This document shows, piece after piece, positions 47,267-59,639 of a stretch of 64,000 nt of DNA. The notes beneath the pieces were generated by a model. It was not told the DNA's origin and did not search any database. It saw only the letters and a program-made list of their open reading frames with translations. Numbering within the stretch: the stretch's first letter is position 1; every line of letters begins with the position of its first letter. The DNA lies in assembly GCA_947167105.1 (NCBI GenBank), contig CAMVGU010000007.1, positions 1-64,000 on the forward strand. Direction: 5' to 3'. The stretch is from an uncultured Selenomonas sp. GTDB taxonomy: Bacteria; Bacillota; Negativicutes; Selenomonadales; Selenomonadaceae. Position numbers and translations under genes: made by a program.

Positions 47267-47277
47267 ATGTAATTTGC

Positions 47278-47458
47278 GGCGTGTTTCATTGACGGCCTAT
47301 TTAGGTTGACAAGTTTTTGTGCAGATTTTAGGCAGGATTCCATCCAATGCGTACATTTATGACGATTTTACTGGACACAGAGAGTGTATTACTTGGATAA
47401 GGTCCGTCTATGGTAGACAAAACCTGTCAACCTAAAACAACGCTATTTGAAACACGCC
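47278..47458. mobile_element. 181-bp MITE with 8-bp target-site duplication
   Basis: The termini are inverted repeats (GGCGTGTTTCA ... TGAAACACGCC), extended inward by TTTAGGTTGACAAGTTTTTG and its near-complement ending at 47435, so most of the element can fold on itself. TAATTTGC flanks it exactly on both sides (47270-47277 and 47459-47466), a perfect 8-bp duplication. No reading frame inside. It is therefore a recently inserted non-autonomous element. Confidence 0.85.
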
Positions 47459-47512
47459 TAATTTGCTCAGTAAAATCGTGCACGAGCTGTAACAAGTATG
47501 GAGGGATATGTA

Positions 47513-49198
47513 ATGACAGAACCGCGCCATTCTGTGGAAAAACACCTGTCAGATCTTTGCCGAGCCAGATTCCCTATGATATACCTGCCCACTTGGGAAG
47601 AAGAAAGAGCCCTCAAAACATTATTCCGTATAGGAAAAGATACTGCCTTTATCAAAACCGCTCGGGTAATTTTTATCTGGCGCATTACGGCTGGCATAGA
47701 ACTCATAGAAAACGAAAGCGAAATATCCACTGGCGGGAAAATCGAAAAGGATACAGTGGATCCCTTAAAGGCGTTGGAATTTATACAAAAGTATGATAAA
47801 CCAGCTTTGCTGGTCCTGCTGGACTTTCATGTATACTTCGACAGCCGAAAGCCGGAGTCGAAGGTTATACGTAAAATAAGGGATACCGTAAATATGCTCA
47901 AAGGAGGTATGGTTCCCAAAAACGTAATTCTGTTATCTCCCCGCCTGATATTACCAAATGAACTGCAAAAAGATATTACCATTGTAGACTTTGACTTGCC
48001 AGACTACCGAGACATCAAGCAAAGCCTTAAAAGAATTATAAATGACAATCGTGGCAATACCAAGATTCGTTTCGACCTTGACGAGAACAGCAGCGAGGAA
48101 CTTGCCAGGGCCGCTCAGGGACTTACCTTGCAAGAGGCTGAAAATGCCTTTGCCAGGGCCATTGTTGAGCGCGGATGCCTGGACAAGGACAGCAGAGATA
48201 TTATAGTGGAGGAAAAGAGACAGATTATCAAAAAAACAGGTGTTCTGGAGTATATTCAAAGCGATTTGAATCTTGATGATGTGGGAGGCTTGGGCAATCT
48301 AAAAAAATGGCTGCTGAAAAGAAATAATTCCTGGCAAGCCAGGGCAGCCAAGTACAGTCTGCCAGCTCCCAAGGGTGTTCTCATTACCGGTGTTCCAGGC
48401 TGTGGAAAAAGTCTCACAGCCAAGGCTATCAGCGCCATGTGGAAACTGCCGCTTTTGCGTATGGATGTTGGCAAGATTTTCAGTGGCATCGTAGGCAGTA
48501 GCGAGGAGAACATGCGCAATGCCATCAAAACGGCTGAAGCAGCTGCACCAAGCATACTTTGGATTGATGAAATAGAAAAAGGCTTTAGCGGTGTCAGCGG
48601 CTCCGGTGACAGTGGTACTTCCACCCGCGTATTTGGTACCTTTCTCACCTGGATGCAGGAGAAGAAAAATCCTGTCTTTGTAGTTGCAACTGCCAACAAT
48701 ATACACGCATTGCCATCGGAAATGATGAGGAAAGGACGTTTTGATGAGATTTTCTTTGTAGACCTTCCTACGACTTCCGAAAGGAAAGCAATTTTTAAGG
48801 TACATTTAATGCGAAGGCTTAAAGATGCCGATGTCAAAGGTTCCTTCGAGTGGTCAGAAGATGCGCTTGAACATCTGGCTGCAGAAACCGAAGGCTTTGT
48901 TGGAGCGGAAATAGAAAATGCCGTTATCAGCGGCCTGTTTGAAGCTTTCTGCGATAATCGTGCCATCCGCATGGAAGATTTTGATAAAGCTATTGCCAAT
49001 ACAGTTCCTTTGGTGGTAACACAGGCAGAGCAGATATCCGCCATAAGGACCTGGGCAAATGTCAGGGCCGTAGCCGCCACCGCTCCAGAGGATAGGCAGG
49101 ATTATGTGAAGGAAAGTCAGACTCAGATTAAAAGCGATGCTCCAGGAAAAAAAGATGATGTCTTTCAGCAGAGGGGCGGCAGAACCATAGATATTTAG
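47513..49198 (+). CDS. Ycf46-like AAA+ ATPase
   Basis: 561 residues. A non-ATPase N-terminal half (residues 1-250; YLPTWEEERAL, LDFHVYFDSRK, LPDYRDIKQSLKRII) precedes an AAA+ module with Walker A GVPGCGKS near 293, Walker B ILWIDEIEKG near 348, sensor 1 VVATANN and arginine-finger region MRKGRFDEIFF. This is the organisation of Ycf46 proteins. ATG 47513 follows GGAGGG. The C-terminus ends GGRTIDI, which resembles the RFIDF tails of two proteins downstream. First gene of a close-packed cluster that includes Ycf35-like and DUF2997 proteins. Confidence 0.85.
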   Translation: MTEPRHSVEKHLSDLCRARFPMIYLPTWEEERALKTLFRIGKDTAFIKTARVIFIWRITAGIELIENESEISTGGKIEKDTVDPLKALEFIQKYDKPALLVLLDFHVYFDSRKPESKVIRKIRDTVNMLKGGMVPKNVILLSPRLILPNELQKDITIVDFDLPDYRDIKQSLKRIINDNRGNTKIRFDLDENSSEELARAAQGLTLQEAENAFARAIVERGCLDKDSRDIIVEEKRQIIKKTGVLEYIQSDLNLDDVGGLGNLKKWLLKRNNSWQARAAKYSLPAPKGVLITGVPGCGKSLTAKAISAMWKLPLLRMDVGKIFSGIVGSSEENMRNAIKTAEAAAPSILWIDEIEKGFSGVSGSGDSGTSTRVFGTFLTWMQEKKNPVFVVATANNIHALPSEMMRKGRFDEIFFVDLPTTSERKAIFKVHLMRRLKDADVKGSFEWSEDALEHLAAETEGFVGAEIENAVISGLFEAFCDNRAIRMEDFDKAIANTVPLVVTQAEQISAIRTWANVRAVAATAPEDRQDYVKESQTQIKSDAPGKKDDVFQQRGGRTIDI

Positions 49199-49212
49199 AG
49201 GGAGAGATTGAT

Positions 49213-49938
49213 ATGTCCATCTGTTTATTGGTAATTCCCATAGCCCTTGGTATGAGAGCCATTATGGGGGAGAAAAAATTCAACGAGTGGGTTGAGTCAA
49301 ATACTATGCGAATGGCTACGAATTTTAAGGACGAGAAGGATTTGCTGCAAACCGTCAAAGGTGCTGGGCACGATGCAGAACCCTGGGGGGAAATGTATAA
49401 AACACATATAGATAAGGAATTATGGTTTCTATGGGAAAAATACGAGGGGAAATGGCAGGCTAATTTCAGTAAGAGCGATGATATGAGTAAAATCAAGACA
49501 TTTTTTCACAATCTGCAGAAAAGTGCCAACAGGCAGATTCTGTACGTAGAGCCAAGTGCCGTGAAGGTAGAACCCAAAATAGAGGGCACCTTGCCGACCA
49601 TCTACACCAATAAGGAACTGCTGGAAGAGACCTTGCTGAAATATGGTGCAAAGAAGAAACTATATCGTAAGAATCGTACTCTCATCTGCGAGATGGAAGG
49701 CTTTACACTTGAATTCCGGCAGAAAGAGCCAGGGATTCCTTATGAACTCAGCTTTACAGGCTACAAGGACACCCGTGCCATCTTTGATGCCATGAGACAG
49801 TTAGATGAAGGCTACAGAAGTAATGTTCAGGAACATACGTATATGAGTGTAAAGAAGAAATTAGAAGAAAAGAAACTGACAGTAGAAAACGAAGAAATCT
49901 TAGATGACAATTCCATCGTCCTGACGGTGGCTATCTGA
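49213..49938 (+). CDS. Ycf35/DUF1257-like protein
   Basis: 241 residues. The second half has the DUF1257 pattern: TIYTNKELLEETLLKYGAKK, a central LEFRQKEPGIPYELSF, and the end YRSNVQEHTYMSVKKKL, then a beta strand SIVLTVAI. The first half, with a hydrophobic start (ICLLVIPIALGMRAIM), is not familiar. It follows the AAA+ gene by 14 bases. In other bacteria DUF1257 genes neighbour Ycf46-like ATPase and DUF2997 genes, as here. Function unknown. Confidence 0.65.
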   Translation: MSICLLVIPIALGMRAIMGEKKFNEWVESNTMRMATNFKDEKDLLQTVKGAGHDAEPWGEMYKTHIDKELWFLWEKYEGKWQANFSKSDDMSKIKTFFHNLQKSANRQILYVEPSAVKVEPKIEGTLPTIYTNKELLEETLLKYGAKKKLYRKNRTLICEMEGFTLEFRQKEPGIPYELSFTGYKDTRAIFDAMRQLDEGYRSNVQEHTYMSVKKKLEEKKLTVENEEILDDNSIVLTVAI

Positions 49939-49951
49939 GGGGGCAAGAAAG

Positions 49952-50527
49952 ATGGGAATGGCTAAAAAAATTTTTTGGTGGATTTTCTGGTATGCGATTA
50001 TCTGGTTTGCCTTTCTTTGCTTGATTGGAGGCTTGAGTGATATTGTTACAGCCAAACCTCTGCAGGCAATTCTTATATTTGCCATGTTCATAGTTCCGGG
50101 TTGGTACGCAACTCGCAAGGTAAAACAAAAAGCATTGAAGGCAGAGATGGAACAACGTATTGCTGCTGCCCCTCCGCAGCAGCAATACCCTCAACCAACG
50201 TCGCCACCCGTCAAGGAAAGCATAAAGCCTCCCCAGCCCAGGCCAGCAATCCAACACACCGCTGATGTTACCCCTGCCGTATCAGTACAACCTGTGCCCA
50301 AGGCGCTTCCAAACTTGAATGATGCTTCAGCAGATGATTTAGCAAAATTATCCGGTGTGAACCGAATTCTGGCTATGAAAATAATATCGGTCAAAGAAAA
50401 GGACGGCCCCTATAGTTCCATTGAGGATCTCTTTGCACGTGTCCAGCTTACCCCGCAGGTACAAGAGGAAGTACGCTGCCATTTTACCATAGCATCAAGT
50501 GGTGAAGGCCGTTTCATAGATTTCTAG
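49952..50527 (+). CDS. Membrane-anchored helix-hairpin-helix protein
   Basis: Two N-terminal membrane segments (IFWWIFWYAIIWFAFLCLIG; LQAILIFAMFIVPGWYA), a proline-rich linker (about 74-120), then a ComEA-like helix-hairpin-helix domain (LNDASADDLAKLSGVNRILA onward). The tail reads GEGRFIDF. Such HhH domains bind DNA or proteins; with the termini in the cytoplasm it could tether nucleic acid or partner proteins at the membrane. 191 residues, behind GGGGGCAAGAAAG. Confidence 0.75.
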   Translation: MGMAKKIFWWIFWYAIIWFAFLCLIGGLSDIVTAKPLQAILIFAMFIVPGWYATRKVKQKALKAEMEQRIAAAPPQQQYPQPTSPPVKESIKPPQPRPAIQHTADVTPAVSVQPVPKALPNLNDASADDLAKLSGVNRILAMKIISVKEKDGPYSSIEDLFARVQLTPQVQEEVRCHFTIASSGEGRFIDF

Positions 50528-50543
50528 GCAAGAGGTGATATCA

Positions 50544-50783
50544 TTGGTAATTTCCATAAACACGGCAGAGAAAGCAGACTTGCTGCTGCTGCCAGGAATC
50601 AATCTGAGTGAAGCCGAAGCCATAATACGAGAGCGCGATAGAGTTTCCGGCTTTACTTCAAGGGATGAATTCATGTCCTATGTAGCCGGTTTGGATGTGC
50701 AGCCTCATTTCTACACACAAATAGAGCGCACAATAAAGGTGGAACCAATAGCATCCAATTCTGCCCGTTTCATTGATTTCTAA
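50544..50783 (+). CDS. Small helix-hairpin-helix protein
   Basis: About 79 residues: INTAEKADLLLLPGINLSEA, then IIRERDRVSGFTSRDEFMSY, a soluble HhH domain similar to that of the preceding protein. It ends SARFIDF, the same tail as its neighbour. TTG 50544 with AGAGGTG six bases ahead is preferred over GTG 50535. Its partner and ligand are unknown. Confidence 0.72.
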   Translation: MVISINTAEKADLLLLPGINLSEAEAIIRERDRVSGFTSRDEFMSYVAGLDVQPHFYTQIERTIKVEPIASNSARFIDF

Positions 50784-50804
50784 AAACAGGGAGTGAGAAA
50801 AACA

Positions 50805-51041
50805 GTGGCTACCATGCAAATTCGCATTTATCCTGATGGAAAAGTCCAAGGCGATATAGATGGAATTAAAGGAAAACGATGTACAGATTACATAGGTATT
50901 ATAGAAGAACTGACTGAAGGGCGCACCTGGCAATCCAATTTCACAGAAGAATTCTATGAAACCGAGTCAGTGCAGTTCAGACAGGAGCAACGGGACTATG
51001 AGGAGGAAGAATTAAGGGAAGGACAGCATCATGGTTGGTAA
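50805..51041 (+). CDS. DUF2997 family protein
   Basis: About 78 residues. MQIRIYPDGKVQGDIDGIKG and KRCTDYIGIIEELTEG match DUF2997, with its dG-x-V and G-x-x-C core, followed by an acidic C-terminal extension. DUF2997 genes are commonly neighbours of DUF1257 (Ycf35) genes. GTG 50805, GTG 50793 and ATG 50814 are all possible starts. It overlaps the next gene by 11 bases. Confidence 0.72.
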   Translation: MATMQIRIYPDGKVQGDIDGIKGKRCTDYIGIIEELTEGRTWQSNFTEEFYETESVQFRQEQRDYEEEELREGQHHGW

Positions 51042-51666
51042 GCTTCGCCTATACCACTTTATTTCCTCTACTCTCACCGAAGGACCGGGATTGCGGGCAG
51101 GATTATGGGTACAAGGATGCCCACGGCACTGCCCCGGCTGCGCCGCCCCGGAAACATGGGATTTCGATGGAGGATTCGACAAAGACGTTGCTGTGTTGGC
51201 TAAGGAGATTCTTGCCGTTCCGAAGCTGGAGGGCGTTACCTTTGCCGGAGGGGAGCCGTTTTGCCAAGCCGGTGCACTGGCATCTTTGGCAAGGCTCCTG
51301 CGGCAGGGAAATCCCGCCCTTTCCGTTATCTGCTTTACCGGGTGGACGATGGGAGAATTGCTCGCATCTCGCGATCCGGACAAGAAAGCACTGCTGGGGG
51401 AAACCGACCTCCTAATCGACGGCCCCTACATCGAATCCCTTGCCGAAAATGACCGTCCCCTAGTCGGATCCTCCAACCAGGAATTCCACTTCCTGACGCC
51501 GCGACTGAGGGATTGGAAGAAGGGATGGGGCGCATCCAAACATCGGCTGGAAATCCGCATTTCCCCGGACGGAAGCATTGCTGCCAACGGAATGATGCCG
51601 GGGGATGTGTTGCGGGAGATTGTGAACAAAATAAGGAATGGAGCGATGGAAAATGAAATACTGTGA
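51031..51666 (+). CDS. NrdG-like radical-SAM protein
   Basis: A 211-residue 4Fe-4S protein. The cluster cysteines are C30, C34 and C37 in QGCPRHCPGCAAPETWDF, followed by the GGEP motif in FAGGEPFCQAGAL and DLLIDGPYI. These are features of anaerobic reductase activases (NrdG), but no NrdD-type gene is near and the C-terminal part (EIRISPDGSIAANGMMPG) is longer than in NrdG. It more likely activates or modifies a partner in this cluster, for instance through glycyl-radical or peptide chemistry; unproven. Confidence 0.78.
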   Translation: MVGKLRLYHFISSTLTEGPGLRAGLWVQGCPRHCPGCAAPETWDFDGGFDKDVAVLAKEILAVPKLEGVTFAGGEPFCQAGALASLARLLRQGNPALSVICFTGWTMGELLASRDPDKKALLGETDLLIDGPYIESLAENDRPLVGSSNQEFHFLTPRLRDWKKGWGASKHRLEIRISPDGSIAANGMMPGDVLREIVNKIRNGAMENEIL

Positions 51667-52348
51667 AATATGCGGAAAGGAATTTGGAGACGGAGTAAGT
51701 TTCTGCCCTTCCTGCGGAGCGAAATTGTCCGAAAGGGCGCAAGGATTCATCGATCTGGACGAAACAACAGAAACATCGGTGCCCACAGCGCCTTCTGTAT
51801 CCACTGTTCCTGCTGTGCAACCTGGACAGCCGCCTGTGCCGACAATGACATCAAATGCGCCTCCCGATGCCGTCGTATTGAAATCCTCGGCGCCGATTCC
51901 AAGCAAGACCGGATGGACGAAGTGGGGATACATTGCTTCCCTTGTGTTGGCGGTTGTGACTGCCGGTGTTGGGCTATTGGGAGTTTTCTTTGTATTTATT
52001 ATCGAGCATCTTCAGATGGAGCACCATCGCGGGAAAATAAGGAGAATAAAGTTCAAGTTTGTAGATGGTGCAAGCTCTGACGACATATACAACAGATTAC
52101 AGCCGGTTCTCTCACGAAAATACGGGGACAAAATGGAAATTGACCGGGAAGGCGACACAATTGCTGTACACTACAACAGCATCATTTATGACATCAATCT
52201 CAAAGATGACAGCACTTTCTGCGTTTGGTGGAGAAAATCGATTGCAGGTGCTTTTTTCAGCTTCAATGAGTGGAAGCTGTACAAGAAGGTTCGCACCGGA
52301 ACGGCAATTATCGCCTATGAATTGCAACAGGCATTTGGAATCAAGTGA
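51653..52348 (+). CDS. Zinc-ribbon membrane protein
   Basis: An N-terminal zinc ribbon (YCEICGKEFGDGVSFCPSCG; Cys4, 7, 18, 21), a linker rich in Thr/Pro/Val, one transmembrane helix (YIASLVLAVVTAGVGLLGVF near 92-115), and a C-terminal domain of about 110 residues of unknown fold. After the ribbon it has GFIDLDE, which recalls the FIDF tail of neighbouring proteins. ATG 51653 overlaps the radical-SAM gene by 14 bases. About 231 residues. Confidence 0.75.
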   Translation: MKYCEICGKEFGDGVSFCPSCGAKLSERAQGFIDLDETTETSVPTAPSVSTVPAVQPGQPPVPTMTSNAPPDAVVLKSSAPIPSKTGWTKWGYIASLVLAVVTAGVGLLGVFFVFIIEHLQMEHHRGKIRRIKFKFVDGASSDDIYNRLQPVLSRKYGDKMEIDREGDTIAVHYNSIIYDINLKDDSTFCVWWRKSIAGAFFSFNEWKLYKKVRTGTAIIAYELQQAFGIK

Positions 52349-52380
52349 ATTTTGATAGCAAGCAAAGGAGTGAAGCGAAA

Positions 52381-52812
52381 ATGATGTATTCAGCGTTTCA
52401 AAAAAAGTTTGTGGCTCTGTTGGCAGCAACGTTGATTTTCTTCGGATTGCAAGTACAAGTGGAGGCCGCAGATTATTATCTGGGGGAATATCCGGACGGA
52501 AGTGTAGCATATCTTGATACATCGTCCATACGGGTCACAACGCATTATAGCAATGGTTGTTATGATGGACAAACCTATGCGTGCTCTGTGAAGGCTGTCT
52601 ACTCAAATTCAGACCAATACGATAGAGTGCCGTATGAGATCTACGTTGGCCAAAACTGCAGCATCACCAAAAACGGGAAAAAGGTTTGGCACTCATTTCG
52701 TGCGGAGGATCCCGGTTACATAGAGAGAAATCCTGTGGAGAAGAAATTGGTCGATTATTTTATTCAAGTCAACAAGGTGGATTCGCGCAAGGTGCCACAA
52801 CAGATCGATTAG
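52381..52812 (+). CDS. Secreted protein, paralog of the 55325 gene product
   Basis: Signal peptide (KKFVALLAATLIFFGLQVQV, cleavage after EAA) and a mature domain of about 115 residues with DYYLGEYPDGSVAYLDTSSI, RVTTHYSNGCYDGQTYAC and IERNPVEKKLVDYF. The same blocks occur in the 55325-55753 protein, so the two are paralogs. No known family comes to mind. Start ATG behind AAAGGAGTGAAG. It follows the zinc-ribbon gene by 32 bases. Confidence 0.7.
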   Translation: MMYSAFQKKFVALLAATLIFFGLQVQVEAADYYLGEYPDGSVAYLDTSSIRVTTHYSNGCYDGQTYACSVKAVYSNSDQYDRVPYEIYVGQNCSITKNGKKVWHSFRAEDPGYIERNPVEKKLVDYFIQVNKVDSRKVPQQID

Positions 52813-55324: not shown

Positions 55325-55753
55325 ATGACGAAAAGTTTCTTATTCAAATTGCCAATACTCTTCTTATTCATTTTACTTATTCAATTAGGCAATCAATCTA
55401 ATGCAAGTGCAAGCGATTTTTATATGGGCGAATATTCTAGCGGACAAATCGCCTATCTTGATACATCATCTATACGTAAACAAAACCATTACTCGAACGG
55501 ATATCACGATGCAGATACATATAGTTGTCGAGTAAAGGCTGTATGGCCTGACACTAACCAATATGACTGGATTTCATACGATTTTTATATGGGACAAAAT
55601 GTAAGCATAAACAAGAATGGAAAGCAAGTTTATCATTCAAGGAAAGGCCCCCTAGATTATCTTGATAATAATCCTGTAGAAAAAAAATTATGGTTATTTT
55701 TTGAAAGGAAACGTGGACAAGATTGGGGTCAAGTTCCAGAGAGAATATATTGA
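55325..55753 (+). CDS. Secreted protein, paralog of the 52381 gene product
   Basis: Signal peptide (FKLPILFLFILLIQLGNQ, cleavage after ASA), then DFYMGEYSSGQIAYLDTSSI and NNPVEKKLWLFFERK, which correspond block by block to the 52381-52812 protein. The DNA is markedly more AT-rich than that paralog, so they have separate histories. RBS AAGGAAAGGAAG. 142 residues. Ends before a terminator. Confidence 0.7.
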   Translation: MTKSFLFKLPILFLFILLIQLGNQSNASASDFYMGEYSSGQIAYLDTSSIRKQNHYSNGYHDADTYSCRVKAVWPDTNQYDWISYDFYMGQNVSINKNGKQVYHSRKGPLDYLDNNPVEKKLWLFFERKRGQDWGQVPERIY

Positions 55754-59285: not shown

Positions 59286-59307
59286 TGTAATGCAAACTGA
59301 ATATGGT

Positions 59308-59472
59308 AGGAAGCAGGTGCTCACAGAGCTTAATAGGGAATCCGGTGCAAAGCCGGAGCGGTCCCGCCACTGTGAGGGGGAGTCTTGCGCATTATGTCAC
59401 TGGGGTAGATATGCGTACCTTGGGAAGGCGTGCAGGGCGATGAAGCCAAGCCAGGAGAACTGCCTGCTTTAG
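59308..59472 (+). ncRNA. Cobalamin riboswitch
   Basis: The conserved core is present: AATAGGGAATCCGGTGCAA, AGCCGGAGCGGTCCCGCCAC, TGTGAG, then later GAAGCCAAGCCAGGAGAACT. P1 is closed by AAGCAGG (59311) with CCTGCTT (59463). It controls a cobalamin-dependent mutase operon, so repression or alternative regulation by adenosylcobalamin is expected. Confidence 0.93.
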
Positions 59473-59639
59473 CATCACCGTTGGCGCATCGGTTGTCTGG
59501 TGCGTCGTGCCTGCGAGCGATGGGTAGGGGATTGAATCTAGGCGTTATGGTCCTGGCAAGGGAGCGTTTATTCGGGGGAGCACTGCGTTTGTGGCAGTGC
59601 TTTTCGGAGGTGCTCCCGGGGTTGGGCTGCAAGCATGAG

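Follow-up and report, generated by a model that had tools for sequence, protein, structure and literature searches.

Ycf46, Ycf35 and DUF2997 proteins have been retained in cyanobacteria, and Ycf46 and Ycf35 are also found in algal plastids; to our knowledge, none of the three has an agreed function. One cyanobacterial gene cluster (cluster g) groups duf2997 with ycf35, which encodes a DUF1257 protein, and fed7, without a gene for an AAA+ ATPase or a radical S-adenosylmethionine (radical-SAM) enzyme (PMC4284462). Here, we analyzed a stretch of 64,000 nucleotides (the window) from an uncultured Selenomonas sp. (assembly GCA_947167105.1, contig CAMVGU010000007.1, positions 1 to 64,000), in which a compact cassette encodes an AAA+ ATPase, DUF1257- and DUF2997-type proteins, two helix-hairpin-helix (HhH) proteins and an NrdG-like radical-SAM protein. 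The cassette is like the cyanobacterial cluster in having DUF1257 beside DUF2997 with an iron-sulfur protein (PMC4284462), and it differs in that an NrdG-like radical-SAM protein stands where the cluster has a ferredoxin. The presence of a common C-terminal tail on the motor and on the membrane proteins suggests an undescribed membrane machine that is held together or fed by this tail.

A C-terminal tail common to the motor and its membrane partners

Three proteins of the cassette end alike. The Ycf46-like AAA+ ATPase (561 amino acids [aa]; 47513..49198, forward strand, as are all cassette genes below) ends in ...QRGGRTIDI-COOH, the transmembrane (TM) HhH protein (191 aa; 49952..50527) in ...GEGRFIDF, and a small HhH protein (82 aa; 50535..50783), which has no TM segment, in ...NSARFIDF. 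The tails proper are R-T-I-D-I (49181..49195), R-F-I-D-F (50510..50524) and R-F-I-D-F (50766..50780), respectively. An earlier reading of the window, made from the letters and their translations (the sequence-only reading), had recognized the two HhH proteins, an assignment that stands (HHH_3, 4.1e-11 for TM-HhH and 6.7e-9 for the small protein), and missed the strongest clue, the tail that the AAA+ and membrane proteins share. Hydropathy predicts TM segments at residues 7-25 and 31-49 of TM-HhH. Across the loci analyzed, 80 of 94 partners have predicted TM segments by the same measure, and in some partners a TPR or GYF domain precedes the tail.

The identity, position and specificity of the tail are common to the AAA+ protein and its otherwise unrelated partners. 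Scored as R-x-[VILM]-[DE]-[FILVYWM] at the extreme C terminus, the tail is present in all called HhH partners (78/78 TM-HhH and 4/4 small HhH proteins, 82 together) and in 60 of 87 AAA+ proteins under the strict pattern, and it occurs in none of the 67 DUF1257, 57 DUF2997 and 64 radical-SAM proteins. Composition alone predicts a rate of about 5 in 10,000. Among unlabeled open reading frames (ORFs), 10 of 7485 match, and 9 of those 10 are cassette proteins without a profile-detected HhH. A pattern search of the window's own genome (3.15 Mb) with R-x-[ILV]-D-[FILM] identified the three cassette genes as the only genes with this ending, the remaining matches being fragments of 5 to 73 residues. 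The HhH proteins were selected by profile and not by tail; as the profile covered whole proteins, columns of the tail may be part of it, but the other HhH_3 proteins of the same genome lack the tail.

Within the tail, R and D/E occupy fixed positions, and the stretch upstream is variable. As both residues are part of the selection in this position tally, independent support comes from the 78/78 count. A nearly invariant RGG precedes the AAA+ tail; Gly is not conserved in the partner tails, which often have ER instead of GR. With the last 12 residues excluded from tree building, the GGR-tailed AAA+ proteins form one clade (Shimodaira-Hasegawa-like approximate likelihood ratio test, 99). Of the rows in this clade, seven fail the strict pattern, among them one from a truncated contig, one with an internal tail and near-variants.

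Possible relatives of the motif are found in several places. TM proteins at two loci (L081, 9623-10393; L094, 9401-10177) have the tail plus an internal GRVL[DE]P that may be a degenerate second copy. Zinc-ribbon proteins of the window (51653-52348) and of loci L018 and L019 contain a tail-reminiscent but internal FIDL[DE], which lies a short distance C-terminal to the zinc ribbon and in the window reads GFIDLDE. A variant cassette on a Paenibacillus polymyxa plasmid (L112) encodes two membrane proteins with a drifted tail, ending in SRVIHF and KRVIRL, and an AAA+ protein without the tail.

Conservation and components of the cassette

The cassette is a real, conserved unit. A scan for AAA+ relatives with one genome per species returned 567, of which 80 loci were kept, and these contigs, with AAA+ relatives that are 40-62% identical, were combined with relatives from another search and the window to give 88 loci, analyzed by a sensitive six-frame ORF search. 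A GGR-type tail is present on the AAA+ protein in 62 of the 88. Within 7 kb of these 62 genes, DUF1257 and DUF2997 are each present in 56 cases, HhH and a tailed partner each in 55, and radical-SAM in 53, and the tailed partner separates the GGR-tail loci from other AAA+ loci (Fisher, 4.6e-10). Many of the component gaps reflect short contigs; in one locus (L051), the radical-SAM gene and the tailed HhH gene are located on another contig, and the partner in L043 ends in GRRVD, one residue short of a tail. Cassettes with any tailed partner have one to seven, and no component fusions were found among the six-frame ORFs of the analyzed loci. Rare co-occurrence outside this genome, which the sequence-only reading had named as the outcome that would speak against a functional unit, is not what we observed, as most of the 88 loci have the AAA/DUF1257/DUF2997/HhH/radical-SAM set.

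Hosts of the cassette span at least seven phyla, namely, Bacillota, Actinomycetota, Gastranaerophilales (Melainabacteria), Bacteroidota (Tenacibaculum), Fusobacteriota (Sebaldella), Planctomycetota and Armatimonadota. Contigs labeled Methanosphaera, Acinetobacter and Betaproteobacteria (L035, L056 and L026) have cassettes that nest among those of Bacillota or Gastranaerophilales and may be mis-binned contigs of metagenome-assembled genomes (MAGs). Within the class of the window, distribution is patchy, with DUF2997 in 9 of 200 genomes. Conjugative plasmids of Rhodococcus and Arthrobacter carry intact cassettes, and the plasmid copies retain the tails. In several Gastranaerophilales species, the cassette has an LptF/G-like gene on one side and the ATP synthase operon on the other (names read from sequence), and the large Bacillota flanking proteins that we examined read as housekeeping genes. 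Variant loci from Sporomusaceae-like bacteria (L012-L015) have the same core of DUF1257, AAA+, DUF2997 and radical-SAM; they differ in adding a WD40 protein and an MreB/Hsp70-like ATPase upstream of the core and in having an untailed AAA+ protein and no HhH membrane protein.

In the window, all seven tightly packed ORFs are present, co-directional and in the order that had been claimed (47513-52348). Gaps from AAA+ to DUF2997 measure 14, 13, 7 and 9 nucleotides (nt), the DUF2997 and radical-SAM genes overlap by 11 nt, and radical-SAM and the zinc-ribbon gene overlap by 14 nt with a start at 51653 or by up to 29 nt with the longer ORF start at 51638. The AAA+ core matches its Pfam model (PF00004, 3.1e-30, 105.7 bits), with Walker A/B, sensor and Arg-finger recognized by eye. 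A Shine-Dalgarno sequence, GGAGGG, lies just 5' of the ATG at 47513, and an alternative longer ORF start, 47498, lies before it. Directly upstream of this gene is an insertion resembling a miniature inverted-repeat transposable element (MITE), a 181-bp inverted-repeat element (47278-47458) with ends GGCGTGTTTCA/TGAAACACGCC, flanked by an 8-bp direct repeat, TAATTTGC, as target duplication (whole span, 47270-47466), and other genomic copies have 69-99% identity. An invertible promoter upstream of AAA+ was considered and rejected, since the inverted repeat belongs to this repeated element with its target duplication.

The protein that had been called DUF1257-like (241 aa; 49213..49938) has no direct Pfam match, and the Ycf35 assignment holds because 13 of 62 aligned homologues serve as intermediates that match PF06868, the best at 7.4e-30. 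Hydropathy indicates an N-terminal hydrophobic stretch, and an AlphaFold2 model (predicted local distance difference test [pLDDT], 87.5; predicted template modeling score, 0.57) has an N-terminal helix followed by two alpha/beta repeats. The model has no significant PDB match at an E of 0.001. Weak Foldseek matches are to TBP and the spermine synthase N-domain, and VIA-align matches to the AP2 appendage (Z 8.9) and KA1 domains have Z of 8-9, a range common for unrelated folds. The DUF2997 protein (82 aa; 50793..51041) was named correctly (PF11211, 2.4e-13, 50.2 bits against a cutoff of 24.1), and Cys30 is found without exception in the 52 aligned homologues; its low-confidence model (pLDDT 75) gave no PDB match.

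The radical-SAM protein (211 aa; 51031..51666) matches two Pfam models (Fer4_12, 1.4e-33; Radical_SAM, 5e-7), with CxxxCxxC and GGEP invariant in 36 aligned sequences. The nearest named family is NrdG, the activase of class III ribonucleotide reductase, to which the protein is similar in size and in its CxxxCxxC, GGEP and GSxNQ-type motifs. It differs from NrdG in scoring below the equivalog cutoff (TIGR02491, 99.4 against 126.1 bits), in having no adjacent reductase and in being fixed in the cassette. That no reductase lies nearby had been claimed, with a nearby nrdD named as the finding that would make the protein an ordinary activase. The claim is borne out by the absence of any NRDD or glycyl-radical match from contig C7 (NRDD matches are confined to contigs C5 and C16), on which ground a glycyl-radical partner within the cassette was also rejected. 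An NrdG-like enzyme without an adjoining reductase therefore needs a new substrate. Elsewhere in the genome, an NrdD is found on contig C5 and a separate NrdG (176 aa) on contig C16 beside a 97-aa glycyl-radical-like ORF. The class III reductase of this genome looks split, with a 772-aa NrdD lacking the C-terminal glycyl-radical part (L020, 4301-6619, contig C5) and, as apparent second half, the 97-aa ORF with RRITGYLVG adjoining NrdG (L021, 5359-6225, contig C16). On a Treponema succinifaciens plasmid (L111), a related AAA+ protein and a 4Fe-4S radical-SAM protein are located inside a contractile-injection-like locus with a VgrG/Pvc8 family protein and baseplate assembly protein V.

The last gene of the seven (51653..52348) encodes a zinc-ribbon protein (Zn_ribbon_3, 5.7e-5, sub-threshold) with one predicted TM helix. 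Its inclusion in the cassette did not survive comparison: homologues occur only in Selenomonadaceae-like relatives, so we regard the gene as a local, lineage-specific extra. Beyond it, the window has two paralogous small secreted-looking proteins at 52345-52812 and 55325-55753, which flank a lipoprotein-like and a repeat-rich coiled protein, and a cobalamin riboswitch (Rfam RF00174, 105 bits) at 59298-59481, upstream of a methylmalonyl-CoA mutase-like gene.

A putative tail-directed machine and competing explanations

The multi-part, ATP-using, membrane-linked machine put forward by the sequence-only reading is well supported by gene neighborhoods across phyla, once the zinc ribbon is removed from the conserved set. 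We propose, with a probability of about 0.42, that it is a membrane-associated AAA+ remodeling machine that acts on proteins with an R-x-(I/L/V)-(D/E)-hydrophobic-COOH tail. We infer binding of the tail by the AAA+ complex, action on the partners and roles for DUF1257, DUF2997 and radical-SAM along the following lines. The AAA+ ring would recognize the tail on membrane-anchored partners (HhH, TPR or GYF scaffolds) and, helped by DUF2997 and by DUF1257, an N-terminally hydrophobic protein and probable adaptor, would pull on or rearrange these partners using ATP. As the AAA+ protein bears the same tail, that tail could compete for the same site or tether the motor into the same assembly. The sequence-only reading also had the machine use radical chemistry, which is conjectural; in our proposal, the radical-SAM protein would be a usual but dispensable accessory, perhaps modifying or redox-gating the complex.

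Support for remodeling by the AAA+ complex comes from reduced modules of only an AAA+ and a membrane protein, in which the tail is kept. In Sanguibacter and Flavimobilis, the AAA+ gene is followed by a gene for a tailed TM protein, and this protein, alone among the exact pattern matches in these genomes, looks like the product of a plausible gene. Neither genome has DUF1257 or DUF2997 anywhere or a radical-SAM protein of the cassette type, the latter searched in Flavimobilis with the NrdG model only, so that AAA+ is the sole cassette partner left. Membership of the AAA+ clade is thus the simplest feature shared by the cases in which a tail is present, which favors recognition by the AAA+ complex. 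Several observations weigh on the other side. The Sanguibacter AAA+ protein ends in RKVVF and that of Flavimobilis has no tail, and without the exact tail on the motor these modules may be in decay. A tailed AAA+ protein is also present in Nakamurella and in one Actinomycetota MAG, with no tailed partner or other component found. Finally, presence of the tail correlates strongly with that of the radical-SAM gene, as would also be expected of a modification site.

That correlation is the main argument for a somewhat unlikely alternative in which the radical-SAM enzyme would act on the tail as its substrate site, and the AAA+ and membrane proteins, once modified at their C termini, would assemble or be activated. 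The enzyme is encoded in 53 of 62 GGR-tail loci compared to 10 of 26 others (p 2e-5). Its gene and the partner gene frequently overlap by 1-4 nt, and a nearly invariant RGG precedes the AAA+ tail. However, if the tail were purely a substrate, it should vanish with the enzyme, and this is not always so: it is kept without this radical-SAM protein in Sanguibacter, Flavimobilis (NrdG model only), Nakamurella and the Actinomycetota MAG, and the Sporomusaceae-like loci have the enzyme and no tail. A glycyl radical on the partner tails is at odds with the frequent ER in place of GR noted above. It is hardly credible that the radical-SAM protein is just the usual NrdG activase and that the genes cluster by chance; NrdG is indeed the nearest family at 99 bits, but the score falls under the 126-bit cutoff, the genome has its other NrdG and its NrdD on C16 and C5, and conservation across phyla contradicts chance clustering.

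An unlikely explanation of another kind is that the tail serves as a structural peptide for docking to DUF1257 or DUF2997, gathering AAA+ and membrane proteins on one scaffold without being threaded by the motor. No other component accompanies the tailed AAA+ proteins as regularly as these two do (56 of 62 loci each), and the alpha/beta repeats of DUF1257 weakly resemble TBP and peptide-binding platforms such as AP2 appendages, though a Z near 8 is common for unrelated folds. Reduced modules nevertheless keep the tail without either DUF protein, and cyanobacterial and other nontailed loci have both. A defense or conflict system, in which the AAA+/radical-SAM machine would respond to nucleic acid sensed by the membrane HhH proteins, was among the functions first considered and now seems very improbable. 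Patchiness in the class, carriage on conjugative plasmids and weak similarity of AAA+ to the defense AAA IetA would suit such a system, but there is no specific PADLOC match (the other six proteins have none, and AAA+ only general AAA-level similarity to IetA). Moreover, the Bacillota flanks are of a housekeeping type, the position beside the ATP synthase operon in Gastranaerophilales is fixed, and 29 of 35 parsed HhH hairpins lack the second Gly.

Comparison with described systems

A relative of the motor outside tailed loci is on a cyanobacterial (Planktothrix) plasmid, where an AAA+ protein that is not a named Ycf46 record is 42% identical to that of the window over residues 18-524. DUF2997 and DUF1257 genes are nearby; unlike the cassette, this AAA+ protein is untailed and has no HhH membrane partner near it. 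The Planktothrix and cyanobacterial loci indicate that the DUF1257/DUF2997/AAA+ core is broader than the cassette, and the tail, the membrane partners and the NrdG-like protein define a distinct system. The individual families are all known, and the whole matches no described kind that we found; a literature search of open-license papers returned no publication on this cassette.

Relatives of Ycf46, Ycf35 and DUF2997 are now placed in a defined, mobile and compact system, in which a short, testable five-residue motif links a motor and its membrane partners. More tentatively, this may be a widespread membrane machine amounting to a new C-terminal tag system, in which the motor, adaptors and variable membrane scaffolds share a recognition peptide that the radical-SAM protein modifies or gates. 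If true, such a system would also offer a way into the function of the plastid and cyanobacterial proteins Ycf46, Ycf35 and DUF2997.

AAA+ remodelers such as Vps4, katanin and CbbX engage the C-terminal tails of their clients, and proteasomal ATPases have HbYX tails. By analogy, the cassette would resemble these systems in tying an AAA+ protein to short C-terminal peptides and, as for Vps4, to membrane-associated clients. Unlike them, the cassette encodes no ESCRT, tubulin, Rubisco or proteasome, and its motor and putative clients bear the same tail.

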